Source: Bryobacteraceae bacterium
GTDB lineage: Bacteria > Acidobacteriota > Terriglobia > Bryobacterales > Bryobacteraceae
DNA length: 64,000 nucleotides
NCBI GenBank assembly: GCA_025056455.1
Contig: JANWVY010000005.1
Coordinates: 248,001-312,000, forward strand
Direction: 5' to 3'
The notes under the pieces were generated by a model that searched no databases, was not told where the DNA came from, and saw only the letters and a list, made by a program, of their open reading frames with translations. This document shows, piece after piece, positions 28,496 to 38,501 of the stretch. Each line of letters starts with the position of its first letter. The first letter of the stretch is position 1. The translations under genes were made by a program, and so were the position numbers.

Positions 28496-29758
28496 GTGAT
28501 CACGACCGAGCCAGATGCCCTTCGTTCGTCCTTCGTCCCTCCCGTCCCGACAACATTTGAAGATTTACGGATTTCCCAAGCGCTGGTGCAGGACCTGGTG
28601 TTGCGCCGCCTCCTCTTAGAAGGCTTTTCAAACCTTCAAACTTTGAGTCAAAAGCTAAGGCTCTCGATTCCCATCATCGATGCCACGTTCCGTTCTTTGA
28701 GAGCGCAGCAGTTGGTGGAAGTGCGGGGCATGGTGGGTAACGATTATAGCTTCCAGCTTTCCCAGGCGGGCAAGAATTTGGCGTCAGATCGCTTCCAGGT
28801 GTCCCAGTACGCAGGAGCCTGCCCAGTTAGTCTCAAGGATTACCACGCAGCGGTGAAGGCGCAAGCTGCCCGGGTTCAAATCGACCGACGGACGCTGCGC
28901 AGTGCTTTTTCCGATCTGGTGATCACGGATCGAATGCTCGACCAGCTCGGGCCCGCGCTCATCTCTCAAACCTCGATTTTTATCTACGGGCCGACGGGCA
29001 ACGGAAAAACCAGCTTAGCGGAACGGATGCTCCGCGTGTATCAGGACGCTGTTCTCATCCCGTACGCCGTGGAAGTTGACGGACAAGTGATCTCCCTCTT
29101 TGACCCAGTCGTGCACCACCGCATCGAACTTGAGGATCCAGAAATCGACCCTCGGTGGGTGTTGTGTAAGCGTCCCTGTATTGTCGTGGGCGGCGAGCTC
29201 ATTCCCAGCATGTTGGAGCTCCGCCTCGATGATTCTACTGGCATCTACGCTGCGCCCCTTCAGATGAAGGCCAATAATGGGATTTTTATCATCGACGACT
29301 TCGGCCGCCAATTGATGAGTCCCCGGGATTTGCTCAACCGCTGGATTGTCCCCCTCGACCGCCGCGTGGATTACCTTACCCTGCGCTATGGCGTCAAATT
29401 CCAGATTCCGTTTGAGCTGATGGTTGTCTTTTCGACAAACCTAGACCCGGCCGACCTGGCGGATGAGGCTTTTTTGCGCCGCATTCACAACAAAATCTTT
29501 GTGGAAGCGGTGGACGCTTCCAGCTTCGATCAGATTTTTCACCGAGTGGTGGCGGCAAGAAACATTCCCTGCGAGCCAGACAGCGCGGAGTATCTGCGCA
29601 AGCTCTGTTTGCGCGATGGCCGGACCGAACTCCGCGCCTGCTACCCCAACGACATCTGTAACATTCTGATGGCAATCGGGAAATACGAAAACCGCCCGCC
29701 CCGGATGACCAAGGCGGATCTGGAGCGGGCCGCCGCCCTTTACTTCGCCCGTAGTTGA
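28496..29758 (+). CDS. AAA+ ATPase with N-terminal winged-helix domain
   Basis: 420 residues from the GTG at 28496; the frame is open to 28433 but that part overlaps the divergent secretin start. The N-terminal ~100 residues look like a winged helix (LVLRRLLLEGFSNLQTLSQK, LRAQQLVEVRGMV). The ATPase core has Walker A IYGPTGNGKTSLAERM near residue 165, Walker B NGIFIIDDFGRQ, and an arginine region FLRRIHNKIF after STNLDP. The fold resembles MoxR/RavA-type AAA proteins. Its partner is unknown; the head-to-head secretin suggests an export or pilus link. The 3' end overlaps the convergent TPR gene by 19 nt. Confidence 0.85.
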   Translation: MITTEPDALRSSFVPPVPTTFEDLRISQALVQDLVLRRLLLEGFSNLQTLSQKLRLSIPIIDATFRSLRAQQLVEVRGMVGNDYSFQLSQAGKNLASDRFQVSQYAGACPVSLKDYHAAVKAQAARVQIDRRTLRSAFSDLVITDRMLDQLGPALISQTSIFIYGPTGNGKTSLAERMLRVYQDAVLIPYAVEVDGQVISLFDPVVHHRIELEDPEIDPRWVLCKRPCIVVGGELIPSMLELRLDDSTGIYAAPLQMKANNGIFIIDDFGRQLMSPRDLLNRWIVPLDRRVDYLTLRYGVKFQIPFELMVVFSTNLDPADLADEAFLRRIHNKIFVEAVDASSFDQIFHRVVAARNIPCEPDSAEYLRKLCLRDGRTELRACYPNDICNILMAIGKYENRPPRMTKADLERAAALYFARS

Positions 29759-30195
29759 CCCCGTTTAAGGTATTTCTCCAGTTCCGTCATTGCCTCTGCA
29801 AGGCGGCCAGTTTCCAGGTAAATCCGGCTGATTTCGAGATGGGCGTCAGGATGGTCCGCTGAGGCTTGCCGTAGATTTTCGAGGGCTTCTTCTGTGAACT
29901 TTCCTTGCGCCGTCAAGCTGAGTCCCAACAAGTATCTCGCCGTTCGATTGAGTCTTTGTAATTCGATCGCCTTTCTCGAGGCACTTTCGGCGGCTTCGAA
30001 ATGTCCTTGACGGTAGTACCGCCCAGCTTCCCCAATCCAGTCATCCACGCTTGTGGTGTCAGACCTGAGGACAGCTGGGGCCATCCGGTAGGTTGTGGAA
30101 AGGCGCTCAACTCCAGCAAGCGGCGCCTCTGTATGCGGCAGCATGAACACAAGCAGAACCGGAAAAGAAAACCGGATGGCCCCGCGACCGTTCAT
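29740..30195 (-). CDS. Exported TPR protein
   Basis: 151 residues from the ATG at 30195, where a signal-like stretch begins (GAIRFSFPVLLVFMLP); the open frame upstream lacks recognisable sequence. Two to three TPR units follow: DWIGEAGRYYRQGHFEAAES, ARYLLGLSLTAQGKFTEEAL and AHLEISRIYLETGRLAEAMTE. It is probably a periplasmic or membrane-attached scaffold. It sits downstream of hpnI (103 nt) on the same strand and may share its transcript. Confidence 0.75.
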   Translation of the reverse strand: MNGRGAIRFSFPVLLVFMLPHTEAPLAGVERLSTTYRMAPAVLRSDTTSVDDWIGEAGRYYRQGHFEAAESASRKAIELQRLNRTARYLLGLSLTAQGKFTEEALENLRQASADHPDAHLEISRIYLETGRLAEAMTELEKYLKRGQLRAK

Positions 30196-30238
30196 ACCTC
30201 TGAATGACTCGTAAATTTGCGTCCTGCCAGGCGCTGTC

Positions 30239-30258
30239 GTACCGAATTTCTTGGTACG
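30239..30258 (-). terminator. Hairpin after hpnI
   Basis: CGTACC and GGTACG pair around a 8 nt spacer in the gap between hpnI and the TPR gene. There is no T-run on the minus strand, so it may be an attenuator or have no function. Confidence 0.3.
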
Positions 30259-30298
30259 GATGTCGCACCCTTTCGATCCCAGAAGTTCTAAAACAGGG

Positions 30299-31408
30299 TT
30301 AGTCGAGCCGCGACAACTGGCCGTCGCGGCTGAGCTGGTAGCGGTTGCCGCGCCACTCAACGGTGTCGCCCATCCAGCCAGCGATCCAAATGGCGAAAGC
30401 GAAAACGTCCCACAACGGCGCCAGCGGAAAAGCCCAGGCTTGCTGACTCCGCAACAACAACCAACTGGAGAGAAAGCCCATCAGCATGCGGATGAGGAGG
30501 ACAACGACGCTCACCTGCCACATGCCAGAGCCTAGAGCGAGGAGAGCCCAAAAACCGGCATGAGTGACCGGCAGGCCGAGGTAGCCATCTGGGCGCGAGA
30601 CGCGGATTGTCCGCGCCCAACGCAGCTGATGCCGCCACATCTCGGCCCAGGAGCGGTAGGCCATGTTGGTCTCAACAACCTGCTTGGAAACGACGACGCG
30701 CTGCCCGAGCCGTCGCGTAAGCCGTTTGGCCAGTTGGTAATCATCGGCGAGATAGTTCTCAATGGCGCGAAAGCCGCCTGCGGCTTCCCAGTCGGCCGCC
30801 CGGAAGCAGAGCGTGGATCCAAGACCGAACTCTTTCACTCCCACCAGGGGCGCAACGAGCGTGCTCGGGGCGAAGTCGGTGGAGATTCCAAAGGCCTCCC
30901 AACACGCGGCAAGCCCCCGGGCGTTAACGCGATAAAGACAGGTAACCAGACACACGCCAGGATCTTCAAGAGGCGCTACGACCTGCTTGAGGTAGCCGGC
31001 AGGCACCTGAATATCCCCGTCGTTGACCACCCACACCGGCTTGGTCGCAAGTGCGGAAAGAGCGCTCAGGAGTCCTACCTTTCCGTTCGGCGAGCTCGTT
31101 TGAACCTGCTCAATCTCGATCCGGCGTTGCGGGTAGCGTCGAGCCAGATCTTGAATGAGCGCCGGGGCGGGATCCTCCGGATGGTTGACCCCGAATAGGA
31201 GCTCGAAGTCGGGATAATCAAGGCGGGCATGCGATTCGATCGCTTGCGCGAATCCAGGGTCATCGCCCCGTACCGGTTTCAGGATTGATACGCCTGGCGT
31301 TTGAGTCAGGGGGAAGGGTTTGGCGAACAGATGCCGCAACACGGCGATCACCGCCATCAGCTGGTAGGTTGCGGCAATGGCGCACGCCACGCCCAGGAGC
31401 CACGTCAC
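30299..31408 (-). CDS. hpnI: Hopanoid glycosyltransferase HpnI
   Basis: 369 residues from the GTG at 31408, which overlaps the upstream stop as GTGA; a TTG at 31456 is the longer option. It is a GT2/GT21 ceramide-glucosyltransferase-like enzyme: an N-terminal membrane helix, then PGVSILKPVRGDDPGF, WVVNDGDIQVPAGYL (D-x-D-like metal site), FGLGSTLCFRAADWEAAGG, LADDYQLAKRL and the RHQLRWARTIR (Q-x-x-R-W) motif, with hydrophobic helices at the end. HpnI adds N-acetylglucosamine to bacteriohopanetetrol. With HpnJ in the same operon the call is strong. HpnK (deacetylase), HpnG and HpnH are not in the window. Confidence 0.88.
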   Translation of the reverse strand: MTWLLGVACAIAATYQLMAVIAVLRHLFAKPFPLTQTPGVSILKPVRGDDPGFAQAIESHARLDYPDFELLFGVNHPEDPAPALIQDLARRYPQRRIEIEQVQTSSPNGKVGLLSALSALATKPVWVVNDGDIQVPAGYLKQVVAPLEDPGVCLVTCLYRVNARGLAACWEAFGISTDFAPSTLVAPLVGVKEFGLGSTLCFRAADWEAAGGFRAIENYLADDYQLAKRLTRRLGQRVVVSKQVVETNMAYRSWAEMWRHQLRWARTIRVSRPDGYLGLPVTHAGFWALLALGSGMWQVSVVVLLIRMLMGFLSSWLLLRSQQAWAFPLAPLWDVFAFAIWIAGWMGDTVEWRGNRYQLSRDGQLSRLD

Positions 31409-31767
31409 CACGCCAGCAGCCCGACTCCACCTGCCACCAAACAGGCGCCGGTCCAACGCTGCCAGCTGACGTTCTCTTTCAGAAGCACCTTGGCCAGTAG
31501 GGTCTCAACCACGTAGGTGGCCGCTGTAGCTGGCGCGGCAAAGCTCAAATCGGCAATTCGCAACAAGGCGAGAAACGCAAAAAACGAAATCGCCATGCAG
31601 GCTACAGCGAGAATTAACATCCGGCGGCGGAAGAGCCGGACAAACAGGCGCCCGAGGGCGCCAGGGCGGAAATCCTGTATCTCCCCCTGGCGCTTCATCT
31701 CCCGCGACTGTAAAAGGTCGCTGGCTACCGTTGCGGCCACGATCGTTAAGACGAGCAGCCACTTCAT
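31405..31767 (-). CDS. Small EamA/SMR-type membrane protein (ArnF-like), B
   Basis: 120 residues, four hydrophobic helices (WLLVLTIVAATVASDLL, MLILAVACMAISFFAFLAL, LSFAAPATAATYVVETLLA, WTGACLVAGGVGLLAW). The helix-3/4 pattern with PATAATYV and KVLLKENVSWQRW is that of half-size EamA/SMR transporters such as ArnE and ArnF, which flip undecaprenyl-phosphate-aminoarabinose. It overlaps the sister gene upstream by 4 nt and hpnI downstream by 4 nt, so the pair is made together, probably as a heterodimer. Confidence 0.8.
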   Translation of the reverse strand: MKWLLVLTIVAATVASDLLQSREMKRQGEIQDFRPGALGRLFVRLFRRRMLILAVACMAISFFAFLALLRIADLSFAAPATAATYVVETLLAKVLLKENVSWQRWTGACLVAGGVGLLAW

Positions 31768-32153
31768 GGATGGTGTCCCCGCCCGTCATCCCGTTGAGAT
31801 GCAGGCAAGCGGCTTGTTTGAGATGCCACCAAAACGGTGCCGGCGACGATCAAAGCCGTGCCAGCCCAGCGCAATTCGCTGATCTGTTCCTGGAGAAACC
31901 ACCGCCCCAACAGAGCCGAGAGGGGATAGCCAGCGGCAGTTACCGGGAGCACAAAGCTTAAGTCTGCCCACGAAAGCAGGGTCATGCGGCTGAGTGTCCA
32001 CAGGATCAGAAGCGCTACGCCAAGCAAGATCCACCAAAACCAAACTCCTGTCGACGACTTCATGCCCAGGCTTAAAAACAGATTGCCAGAGGCATTGCTT
32101 AGCACCACGATGAGGGTAAGCAGAGCAGTCTTCCAGGCCGGCGTGGATTTCAT
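31764..32153 (-). CDS. Small EamA/SMR-type membrane protein (ArnE-like), A
   Basis: 129 residues, four hydrophobic helices (ALLTLIVVLSNASGNLFLSL, FWWILLGVALLILWTLS, LSFVLPVTAAGYPLSALLG, WAGTALIVAGTVLVAS) and a polar tail. It has the same layout as protein B (LSF-x-x-P-x-T-A-A-x-Y core, then an E before the last helix), so the two are paralogues. It overlaps hpnJ by 4 nt (ATGA) and protein B by 4 nt. A role in flipping a hopanoid glycolipid or its sugar donor is inferred from the neighbours. Confidence 0.8.
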   Translation of the reverse strand: MKSTPAWKTALLTLIVVLSNASGNLFLSLGMKSSTGVWFWWILLGVALLILWTLSRMTLLSWADLSFVLPVTAAGYPLSALLGRWFLQEQISELRWAGTALIVAGTVLVASQTSRLPASQRDDGRGHHP

Positions 32154-33601
32154 GACCGGGCAATGGCAGTCGCTGCACGTTGCTCTCGAACGAACCGTTT
32201 ACGCTTGGCGCGGAGGGCCAGATATTCTCTCGCTTCTTTGTAGAGGCGGCGGCGCTCGGCGCTGTCAAATAGCGCTTTACGGACGACCCGCCACGCAGCT
32301 TTCGGCCGGAAATAATACTCGCCGTAGAAACGCTCAACCCAGTCTACAAGTTCCGCGCGATCGAGGTTCTCATAGCGGATGTTGGGGAGCTGATGACCTT
32401 TTTCATCGGTCATGGCGTCGATTGTGATCAAGCCGTTCTGCTTGACATAGTCGTAAAACTCCGTGCCGGGGTAGGGATGAGCAATCGACACTTGAATGGT
32501 TTCTGTATCGAGCGATTTCGCAAATTCGATCGTGCGCCGGATGGATTCGCGGGTTTCTCCGGGTAAGCCAACAATGAAGTCGCCGTGAATCACCAGTCCG
32601 AGTTTGTGGGCGTTCTCGGTGAATCGCCGCGCCATATCAAGTGTTGCGCCCTTTTTGATGTTTTTCAGAATTTGGGGATCGCCCGTTTCATAACCGACAA
32701 TCATGAGCCGGGCGCCGGCTTCCTTCATGGCCTTCAAGGTCTCATAGTCGGTGGTCACGCGTGAGGTGCAGGACCAGGTGAAATTCAGCGGACCAAGTTT
32801 CTCGCAGATTTCCAGTGTTCGCTTCTTTTGGTAGTTGAAAGTGTCGTCGTCGAAGAAAATCTCTTTGAGCCCTGGGAAATTCTCAAGCGCCCACTTCACT
32901 TCATTCGCCACGTCGTTTGCCGAGCGGGTGCGCCAGCGGTGACCGGAATGAGTCTGCGGCCACAAGCAAAAGGTGCACTGAGCGGGACAGCCTCGCGAGG
33001 TGTAGAGGGCGATAAAAGGGTGCAGCAGGAATGGCACGTTATAGCGCCGGAAATCTAGATCTCGCCGGTATACCTTCGTGACCCAGGGCAGACTGTCCAG
33101 ATCCTCGACGTAGCCGCCCTCAGGATTGTGCACGATCTTTCCATCCTTCCGGAAGCTTACGTTGGAGATCTCCTCAAGCGGAGTCCCAGTGGCGTATTTC
33201 ACGATGGGGTAGTCAAACTCGCGGCGGACAACAAAGTCAATAGCGGGGGTTGTGCGCAGAATCCGATCCGCATCGACGGTGACTGGCGGTCCCACGAAAC
33301 ATACTTTTAGTTTCGGGTTCACGTCTTTCATCATCGACGCCATTTTGACGTCGATTTCAAAGCCGGGCGTGGAAGTAAACAGCACGACCAGCTCATACTC
33401 CTTGGCCATCTGAACGGTCTGCTCGATGGAGATCTTGTGCGGCGGAGCGTCGACAACCTTGCTGTCTGGCAGCATGCCGGCTGGGTAGCAAAGCCACACT
33501 GGATACCAATAGGATTCGATTTCCCGAGTGGCTGGCCAGCGTGAGCTGGCGCCACCATCAAACCCCTCAAAAGAAGGCGGGTTGAGGAATAAAGTACGCA
33601 T
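32150..33601 (-). CDS. hpnJ: Hopanoid radical SAM protein HpnJ
   Basis: 483 residues from the ATG at 33601 (MRTLFLNPPSFEGFDGG); the frame is open a little further upstream. The N-terminal part is a B12-binding-like Rossmann domain (YELVVLFTSTPGFEIDV, KVCFVGPPV). The radical SAM cluster is CPAQCTFC near residue 203, followed by EIFFDDDTFN, LMIVGYETGDPQILKNIKKG and HGDFIVGLPGETRESI. HpnJ forms the cyclitol ether head group from glucosaminyl-bacteriohopanetetrol. It sits with HpnI in one operon, downstream of the epimerase (68 nt gap). Confidence 0.9.
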   Translation of the reverse strand: MRTLFLNPPSFEGFDGGASSRWPATREIESYWYPVWLCYPAGMLPDSKVVDAPPHKISIEQTVQMAKEYELVVLFTSTPGFEIDVKMASMMKDVNPKLKVCFVGPPVTVDADRILRTTPAIDFVVRREFDYPIVKYATGTPLEEISNVSFRKDGKIVHNPEGGYVEDLDSLPWVTKVYRRDLDFRRYNVPFLLHPFIALYTSRGCPAQCTFCLWPQTHSGHRWRTRSANDVANEVKWALENFPGLKEIFFDDDTFNYQKKRTLEICEKLGPLNFTWSCTSRVTTDYETLKAMKEAGARLMIVGYETGDPQILKNIKKGATLDMARRFTENAHKLGLVIHGDFIVGLPGETRESIRRTIEFAKSLDTETIQVSIAHPYPGTEFYDYVKQNGLITIDAMTDEKGHQLPNIRYENLDRAELVDWVERFYGEYYFRPKAAWRVVRKALFDSAERRRLYKEAREYLALRAKRKRFVREQRAATAIARS

Positions 33602-33669: not shown

Positions 33670-34620
33670 CTAGCGGCTGGGAATGGGCGACCGGACCAGT
33701 TCGCGAAAATAGCGTACCGTCTCTTCCAATCCCTCACGCAAGCTCACCTTCGGCTCCCAGTTGAGTAGCCGTTTGGCTTTCGTGATGTCGGGGCGCCGGC
33801 GCCGGGGGTCATCCTGAGGCAGCGGTTCAAAGCGGATGGGAATGTTGGGGTTCACTGCCCTGCGGACATATTCCGCAAATTCCAGGATGGTCATCTCGTT
33901 AGGATTACCGAGATTCACGGGATAGCGCTCGTCACTGAACAAAAGCTTGACCAGCCCTTCCACCAAATCCCGAACATAGCAGAAGCTGCGTGTTTGTGAA
34001 CCATCGCCGTACACGGTCAGCGGTTCACCTCGTAGGGCCTGATCGAGGAAGGCAGGCACGACCCTACCGTCATTGAGCGCCATCCGCGGCCCGTAGGTGT
34101 TGAAGATCCGCGCGATCGTGGTCCGCAATCCGTACTTTCGGTGGTAGGCCATGGTGATCGCCTCGGCGTAGCGTTTGCTTTCGTCATAGCAGGAACGCGG
34201 GCCCACCGGATTGACATTGCCCCAGTAGGTTTCTACCTGCGGATGCACTTCGGGGTCTCCGTAGCACTCAGAAGTGGAAGTGAGAAGAAAGAGCGCGTTA
34301 TTCTTCCGCGCAATCTCGAGCATGTTTCGCGTGCCGGTGGATCCTACTTCCAAGGTCTCAATGGGATGAGCGTAATAATGCCGCGGACTTGCCAGGGAAG
34401 CGACATGAAGCACCCCGTCGAAGCTGCCATCCACCCGGACCGGCTGAGTAACGTCACCTTCCAGGAGCTGGAACCGGGGATGCGCTTCTAGATGGGCAAG
34501 GTTCGTTCTGGACCCTGTAATGAAGTTGTCAATTCCGACGACCGTGTGCCCGTCGCTGAGGAGGTAGTCACAAAGATGAGATCCAATGAATCCTGCTGCC
34601 CCAGATATCAGAAAACGCAA
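33670..34620 (-). CDS. UXS-like NAD-dependent epimerase/decarboxylase
   Basis: 316 residues of the short-chain dehydrogenase/epimerase type. N-terminal [15 protein letters not shown] binds NAD. The catalytic Ser is in [10 protein letters not shown] and the Tyr-x3-Lys in [21 protein letters not shown] and [19 protein letters not shown] are typical of UDP-glucuronate decarboxylase (UXS), which makes UDP-xylose. It is the first gene of the hopanoid operon, which suggests it supplies a sugar for lipid or glycan modification. Other sugar epimerases share these motifs, so UDP-xylose is not proven. Confidence 0.85.
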
Positions 34621-36651: not shown

Positions 36652-38094
36652 CTAGCCTTTGATGACGCCCATGGGCCGCAAACGGGCCACTTTGCGCGCA
36701 AGGCCTGCGCCCTCCACTACGGCGATGACCTCATCCACGTCCTTGTAAGCTTCCGGGATTTCCTCGAGAATCCCGTCTCGCGTCTCACTACGCACGATGA
36801 TTCCCCGACGTTCGAGTTTGTCGCGAACCGTACGTGCATCCTGACCGCGTTTAGCTGCGGTTCGGCTCAACAACCGCCCAGCGCCGTGACAGACGCTGCC
36901 GAAAGTATGCTCCATGGCGCCTTCCGCCCCCACTAAAATCCAGGAAGCCGTACCCATGCTACCCGGCACTAGCACGGGCTGCCCGATGTGGGCATACTCG
37001 CGGGGAATCTCCGGATGTCCGGGGGGAAAGGCGCGCGTAGCTCCTTTGCGGTGCACCAGGACATCGCGTTCTACGCCGTCGACGGTATGCTTTTCTCGCT
37101 TGGCGATGTTGTGGCAAACATCATAGAGCACGCTAAGTCGCGCCGATTTGCCAAAGATCTTGGCGAAGCTTCCCCTGAGCAGATGGAGGATGGCCTGCCG
37201 GTTCGCCCAGGCGAAGTTGGCCGCCGCGCGCATCGCCTTGAGATAGGACTGGCCTTCGGCGGACTGGATGGGGACACAGGCCAGCTGGCGGTCGGGTGTG
37301 GAAATCTGATGGCGCTTCATGGCGCTGCCCATCTGGGCGAGATAATCCGTGCAGACTTGATGTCCGAGTCCGCGCGAACCGCAGTGCAGAAGCACGACCA
37401 CGCGGCCTACCTCGAGCCCCATCGCCTGTGCGGCGGCCGGATGATGGATGCTTTCCACGTACTGAATCTCGAGGAAATGGTTCCCGCTACCAATGGTTCC
37501 CAGCTGGGGTCTTCCGCGCTCTTTAGCTCGAGCAGAGACCTCCTCAGGATCCGCCTCGGGTAAACAGCCGCGCGACTCGGCGAAGCGCAAGTCGCGCTCT
37601 TCGCCAAAACCCTTGCGCACCACAGCATCTGCCCCCCGCACCAACACCTCCTCGAGCTCCTTGGCGGTAATGTCAAACGGGCCTTGACCTCCAGCACCGC
37701 ACGGAACATCACGAAAAATCTGATCCACAAGCTCTTTCAGTCGTGGCCGCACGTCGGTTTCATACAGCGTGGTGTTCATCAACCGGACTCCACAGTTAAT
37801 ATCGAAACCGACGCCGCCTGGCGAGACAACGCCATGACGGTAGTCCATGGCTGCAACGCCGCCGATGGGGAAACCATAGCCCTGGTGGATGTCCGGCATG
37901 GTGAGGCTCGGTCCGACGATGCCGGGAAGAGTCGCTACGTTCATCGCCTGCTCGAGCGAAAGGTCTTTGCGGATTTGTTCGAGCAGAGTCTCGCTGGCGT
38001 AGGCAATCACGTCCGTTCTCATGCCGCGGCGCTCATCTTTCGGGATGCGCACGCGCCATTCGTCCAACCGCTCCAGATGCATGCTTTTTTTCAA
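36652..38094 (-). CDS. rtcB: RNA ligase RtcB
   Basis: 480 residues, normal for RtcB. It joins 2',3'-cyclic phosphate or 3'-phosphate RNA ends to 5'-OH ends using GTP and manganese. Metal ligands lie in GGVGFDINCGVRL (Asp and Cys), GSGNHFLEIQ and HCGSRGLGHQV; the guanylylated His is in SVCHGAGRLLSR. The start is a TTG overlapping the archease stop, or an ATG at 38082. It is the last gene of the MFS-archease-rtcB set. No rtcA or rtcR is present, unlike the E. coli operon. Confidence 0.96.
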   Translation of the reverse strand: MKKSMHLERLDEWRVRIPKDERRGMRTDVIAYASETLLEQIRKDLSLEQAMNVATLPGIVGPSLTMPDIHQGYGFPIGGVAAMDYRHGVVSPGGVGFDINCGVRLMNTTLYETDVRPRLKELVDQIFRDVPCGAGGQGPFDITAKELEEVLVRGADAVVRKGFGEERDLRFAESRGCLPEADPEEVSARAKERGRPQLGTIGSGNHFLEIQYVESIHHPAAAQAMGLEVGRVVVLLHCGSRGLGHQVCTDYLAQMGSAMKRHQISTPDRQLACVPIQSAEGQSYLKAMRAAANFAWANRQAILHLLRGSFAKIFGKSARLSVLYDVCHNIAKREKHTVDGVERDVLVHRKGATRAFPPGHPEIPREYAHIGQPVLVPGSMGTASWILVGAEGAMEHTFGSVCHGAGRLLSRTAAKRGQDARTVRDKLERRGIIVRSETRDGILEEIPEAYKDVDEVIAVVEGAGLARKVARLRPMGVIKG

Positions 38095-38501
38095 ACGTCG
38101 AGATAAACTTCACACACCCATTTCCCATTTTCACAAGCGATGCGCAGCTGGTGGTAGGTGACGCCCTTGACGATTAGGCGCGGCTCGTGCCGCGGCTGCC
38201 GGGGCTCGCCCCATCCCAAACCGGAGGCCTCGCTTTCGCTGAAGCGATGAACTTCAAAGCGGGCTAGCGCGACCCGCTGCCCGTCGAGGTAGTAGAGCAC
38301 CTCGCTCAACCAGTTGACGAGCAAGCTTTCGCGGTCTTCACCGGCGGCCGCAATCGGATAGGCATGGGCTGGTTCAATGGTTCCGAGGTCCATCGCAATC
38401 GACACCAAGGCTTGGCTTGCTCCCACCAGCAGTTGTTCAAAACTTGCGCCCCAGGCCCGGAAACCGATGTCAGCTGTGTGCTCGATGACTTCGAAATTCA
38501 T
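38091..38501 (-). CDS. Archease
   Basis: 136 residues, full length. The N-terminal EHTADIGFRAWG contains the conserved acidic site, NWLSEVLYYLDG the middle helix, and the C-terminus KWVCEVYLDV the second acidic site. Archease speeds RtcB guanylylation and allows multiple turnover. It overlaps both neighbours by 4 nt (MFS stop and rtcB start), so its production is coupled to both. Confidence 0.93.
   Translation of the reverse strand: MNFEVIEHTADIGFRAWGASFEQLLVGASQALVSIAMDLGTIEPAHAYPIAAAGEDRESLLVNWLSEVLYYLDGQRVALARFEVHRFSESEASGLGWGEPRQPRHEPRLIVKGVTYHQLRIACENGKWVCEVYLDV

Follow-up and report, generated by a model that had tools for sequence, protein, structure and literature searches.

Two small membrane proteins encoded between hpnJ and hpnI in a Bryobacteraceae genome (Acidobacteriota), here called A and B, probably pair as a heterodimer and flip the glycosylated hopanoid that HpnI makes, standing in the place of HpnL. 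This reading draws on sequence comparison and structure prediction, and is favoured because of the conserved linkage of the pair to the pathway genes, the fusion of B to HpnI, the pattern of replacement by HpnL, the fold type, and the opposite charge bias of the two subunits. Functional coupling of A and B to the HpnI/HpnJ pathway is well supported and hardly in doubt. The window that was analysed is a stretch of 64,000 nucleotides, in which the features concerned are as follows:

32150-33601, minus strand: hpnJ, ATG start; B12-binding radical SAM enzyme of the acidobacterial type (TIGR03471, 774 bits against a cut-off of 577.6)
31764-32153, minus strand: protein A, 129 aa; EamA/SMR-type half-transporter, both termini predicted cytoplasmic (ArnF-like topology)
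31405-31767, minus strand: protein B, 120 aa; half-transporter of the EamA/SMR type with ArnE-like topology (both ends predicted in the periplasm)
31717-31719, minus strand: codon 17 of B, Asp in helix 1
30299-31408, minus strand: hpnI, GT21-like glycosyltransferase; begins with GTG, in a 4-nt overlap with the stop of B

The hpnJ-A-B-hpnI unit and the hopanoid genes of its genome

The four genes constitute a single minus-strand unit with three 4-nt overlaps, at TC-ATGA (hpnJ/A), CC-ATGA (A/B) and TG-GTGA (B/hpnI), and the description in the first-pass annotation of four genes overlapping by 4 nt each is thus borne out by the sequence and its open reading frames. Two adjoining genes were considered as members and excluded: a sugar-nucleotide dehydratase/epimerase gene just upstream of hpnJ (33670-34620, minus strand), which has no counterpart 5' of hpnJ in two family relatives, and a TPR gene after hpnI (29740-30360 frame). 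With the E. coli arn operon used for comparison of gene context, no arnT, arnC or arnD was found among the neighbour genes read, the neighbours of A and B being hpnJ and hpnI. Elsewhere in the window (36652-38501, minus strand), an RtcB-like protein gene (family assigned from reading the sequence) overlaps an archease gene by 4 nt.

The hpnJ product is the sole HpnJ of this genome and lies above the curated cut-off, while the window HpnI reaches 296.9 bits against TIGR03472, just under the cut-off of 310, which pair-linked HpnI orthologues in other families exceed (375.8 and 392.4 bits). Two HpnI-like genes are present in most of these genomes, and the second homologue in this one (G000:C8:10303-11421, L039) reaches 321.8 bits, above the cut-off. 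The interpretation of the window hpnI as a mere paralogue, suggested by the higher score of the C8 copy, was rejected on the basis of the tree and gene order: the window gene falls among the pair-linked HpnI sequences from its own family, and the C8 copy in a separate acidobacterial clade never found adjoining the pair. The deep branch of this tree is short, and it is with moderate confidence that we favour the window copy as the HpnI of the hpnJ/pair group; the curated cut-off may misname both the C8 and the operon copies.

Squalene-hopene cyclase (SHC) passes its cut-off in this genome, with 652.8 bits. Of the sampled HpnJ genomes, all gave an SHC match apart from G226, an assembly of 77% completeness. 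The SHC frame of G267 (G267:C23:125763-127643), otherwise a full-length match (890 bits), contains one internal TGA. No HpnK over the cut-off was found in the window's genome, the best relative scoring 167 bits against 232.6, and this leaves the sugar of the substrate and the final glycolipid uncertain here. This agrees with a description of SD1 and SD3 acidobacteria as carrying hpnI and hpnJ but lacking hpnK (PMC5462960). HpnL (TIGR03476) is likewise below its cut-off in this genome (best match 20.4 bits, cut-off 195.65).

Distribution of the pair and of HpnL

Conservation was studied in 297 acidobacterial genomes, on which all counts for G-numbered genomes rest, by running a B profile that also catches A and comparing the coordinates with those of HpnJ hits. 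HpnJ was found in 47 of the 297 (45 over the cut-off, two partial), and the A+B pair in 43 of these 47, in 39 of them on the hpnJ strand and within 2 kb of hpnJ. In G130, G195, G267 and G291 the pair lies elsewhere in the genome, e.g. about 8 kb away in G130, after hpnK in G267, and between hpnK and hpnI in G291. A/B hits reaching 56 bits or more were obtained in 11 of the 250 genomes lacking HpnJ, and in five of these 11 an HpnI-like gene is no more than 1 kb away. The association of the pair with HpnJ gives a Fisher value of ~1e-36, which ignores phylogenetic kinship and is thus overstated. The first-pass annotation had proposed a search for the same order in other hopanoid producers, with absence of the pair counting as refutation; the acidobacterial-type HpnJ is in fact accompanied by the pair in 43 of 44 genomes, spanning seven families and including some in which B is fused to HpnI.

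The order hpnJ-A-B-hpnI is found in all sampled genomes of the window's family, with variants in other acidobacterial families, and this recurrence indicates that the arrangement is not due to chance. B adjoins hpnI in 11 genomes from five families. The order hpnJ-hpnK-A-B-hpnI occurs in G259 and in Chloracidobacterium-like genomes, and also in G063 (with small extra genes), while in the SD1-like class hpnJ-A-B remain together and hpnI is located elsewhere. In three genomes from three genera (G291, G340 and G343) the arrangement is hpnK-A-[B::HpnI], a single unbroken frame encoding B and HpnI together, which provides strong evidence of a joint role; the two are separate in G342 and probably in G344. 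The predicted topology is compatible with this fusion, since the C-terminus of B is predicted to be periplasmic and the first (N-terminal) helix of HpnI is followed by positive residues.

A different arrangement is seen in families without full-length HpnJ (G037, G066 and G196, at L110, L112 and L229; G203, at L113), where one A-like EamA protein, with Gln at the helix-1 position discussed below, comes after HpnI and HpnK, and where in G066 a DegT-type aminotransferase and an epimerase come next. These loci possibly represent a different amino-sugar hopanoid cluster.

The HpnJ-containing acidobacteria without the pair are four: G029, G278 and G192, all three with a proteobacterial-type HpnJ, and G208 (3.3-kb contig). 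G029 and G278 have HpnL close to the cluster, and in G192 both hpnJ and an HpnL fragment are at contig ends (the fragment at a contig start); HpnL over the cut-off was found in none of the acidobacterial HpnJ genomes. In other bacteria, 84 HpnJ loci of the proteobacterial type include none with the A-B pair (0/84) and 33 with HpnL within the flanks. HpnL was found in all 40 HpnJ genomes sampled from other phyla (38 over the cut-off, the remaining two at 180 and 146 bits), and the pair in none of them, their best relative scoring 40.9 bits compared with at least 89 bits for the best A/B member in every pair-bearing HpnJ genome. No sampled genome combines the pair with an over-cut-off HpnL. The choice between pair and HpnL tracks two deep HpnJ clades, so that the independent replacement events are few and the Fisher values overstate the association.

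HpnL (LPG_synthase_TM family, PF03706, some members also matching a ‘flippase-like’ model) is a predicted membrane protein and, like the pair, it clusters with hpnI, hpnJ and hpnK, e.g. in Burkholderiaceae and Methylobacterium, but it does not belong to the EamA family. Its function is stated as not established in a 2025 survey of alphaproteobacteria (PMC12583986). The presence of HpnL in proteobacteria in place of the pair had been missed in the first-pass annotation.

Family, fold and charge of A and B

Proteins A and B share 35% identity across 91 aa (E 9e-13) and are paralogues. B is assigned to the EamA family (PF00892, 34.0 bits, cut-off 28.2), while A alone scores 18.8 bits, under the cut-off. 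The AlphaFold model of B (pLDDT 84) contains four membrane helices, with a short extra helix linking the first to the second, and its best PDB matches are EmrE and Gdx, with TM scores of 0.6-0.7 (Foldseek probability 1.0, E-values weak at 0.04 and up). Arg/Lys bias, counted with helix ends set by hand from this model, averages +2.1 for A (sd 1.7, n=42; window A +4) and -4.2 for B (sd 1.8, n=38; window B -6), and the E. coli proteins gave a similarly opposed +3 for ArnF and -3 for ArnE. Opposite charge bias is a mark of fixed antiparallel SMR pairs (PMC9574504), and A and B, as two adjacent four-helix subunits of opposite bias, fit a predicted antiparallel heterodimer of the SMR type. EmrE, the best structural match of B, and the paired SMRs EbrAB and MdtIJ share the four-helix fold, and the pairs the fixed antiparallel heterodimer logic, but these proteins export soluble cations or drugs, whereas A and B are encoded in a lipid glycosylation operon and fall on the EamA side by sequence.

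The helix-1 position corresponding to codon 17 of B is Asp or Glu in 38 of 38 B sequences, and Asp, Asn or rarely Gln in A. Counting from an M-K motif had suggested equivalence to E14 of EmrE, which was rejected because three MAFFT modes align the residue with T18, one helical turn away. We take this acidic residue as a lead only.

The first-pass annotation had likened A and B to ArnE/ArnF (lipid subtype of the SMR family) in size and layout, a comparison supported by the paired overlapping genes, the opposite charge bias and the SMR-like fold of four helices. Both pairs are also located beside genes for amino-sugar glycolipids, and B resembles ArnE in its second half (32% identity). By contrast, B scores only 30.5 bits against an ArnE cut-off of 92 (NF011625) and 22.6 bits against an ArnF cut-off of 99 (NF002816; NCBIfam), A has no match to either model at the reporting limit, E. 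coli ArnE and ArnF contain Gln at the helix-1 position that is always acidic in B, and the partner genes of A and B are hpnJ, hpnK and hpnI, with no arn genes beside them. Membership of ArnE/ArnF was rejected, given scores far below the curated cut-offs and the lack of an arnBCADT (Ara4N pathway) context.

As the closest characterised relatives, ArnE/ArnF flip undecaprenyl-phosphate-Ara4N (PMC9574504), and this function, together with the resemblance of B to ArnE (hhalign probability 95%), would suit a pair that flips a lipid-linked sugar donor, e.g. an undecaprenyl-phosphate amino sugar, or moves a sugar precursor of the pathway, rather than the finished hopanoid glycolipid. This alternative is unlikely, as HpnI-type enzymes reportedly transfer GlcNAc straight onto bacteriohopanetetrol (PMC12583986), arn genes are missing among the neighbours read, and the fusion partner of B is HpnI and not a polyprenyl-phosphate transferase. 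The tight gene coupling, the B-HpnI fusion, and the persistence of the pair beside hpnJ even where hpnI is elsewhere could also be explained by A and B acting as structural partners of HpnI and HpnJ, in membrane anchoring or in hopanoid hand-over between the enzymes, and not as transporters. A purely structural role is quite improbable, since antiparallel transport dimers typically combine two different paralogues whose charge biases are opposite (PMC9574504), and since HpnL, the partner found instead of the pair, comes from a flippase-like family.

Four genomes that lack both HpnJ and full-length SHC (G215, G169, G201 and G074; L106-L109) carry A/B-like pairs too, likely with another substrate there, and the family thus extends beyond hopanoids. 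These pairs would be in keeping with an EamA/SMR efflux or metabolite transporter that has no hopanoid substrate and is in the operon for regulatory reasons, which is very unlikely in view of the association in seven acidobacterial families, the repeated HpnI fusion, and the near-absence of the pair without the pathway.

A candidate flipping step in hopanoid glycolipid export

The flippase for glycosylated hopanoids proposed in the first-pass annotation has thus gained from pathway linkage, the HpnI fusion and the heterodimer features, while A and B fail the ArnE/ArnF models and flipping itself is what we infer. That annotation had also regarded such a flippase as no established part of the Hpn pathway, and no such gene is named in the literature searched. 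The survey of acidobacteria (PMC5462960) mentions no transporter, and the search, which covered papers free of subscription, returned none that connects hopanoid glycosylation with EamA or SMR proteins.

In the proposed mechanism, HpnI would use its cytoplasmic catalytic domain to add an amino sugar to bacteriohopanetetrol, and HpnJ, with HpnK where present, would modify the sugar in the cytoplasm, both steps being established for the pathway elsewhere. The A-B dimer would then accept the polar head in a central cavity, with the hopane skeleton staying in the membrane, and flip it from the cytoplasmic leaflet of the inner membrane into the periplasmic one, from where a carrier, perhaps HpnN-like, would take the lipid onward to the outer membrane. 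HpnN, a large RND transporter involved in hopanoid transport to the outer membrane (PMC12583986), serves the step between the two membranes, as distinct from the flipping within the inner membrane proposed for A and B. In bacteria with the proteobacterial-type HpnJ, the flipping step would be performed by HpnL. More tentatively, this step may have been solved twice by unrelated proteins, through a heterodimer of the EamA/SMR type in most Acidobacteriota that have HpnJ, in some lineages fused to the glycosyltransferase, and through HpnL in Proteobacteria and others.

For the route of composite hopanoids from the cytoplasmic face, the presumed site of HpnI, HpnK and HpnJ, to the outer membrane, HpnN has so far been the only component accounted for, and with the pair there is now a specific candidate for flipping. 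If the proposal is true, the group of SMR/EamA lipid flippases would widen to include a triterpenoid glycolipid as substrate, and HpnL would gain a predicted function.
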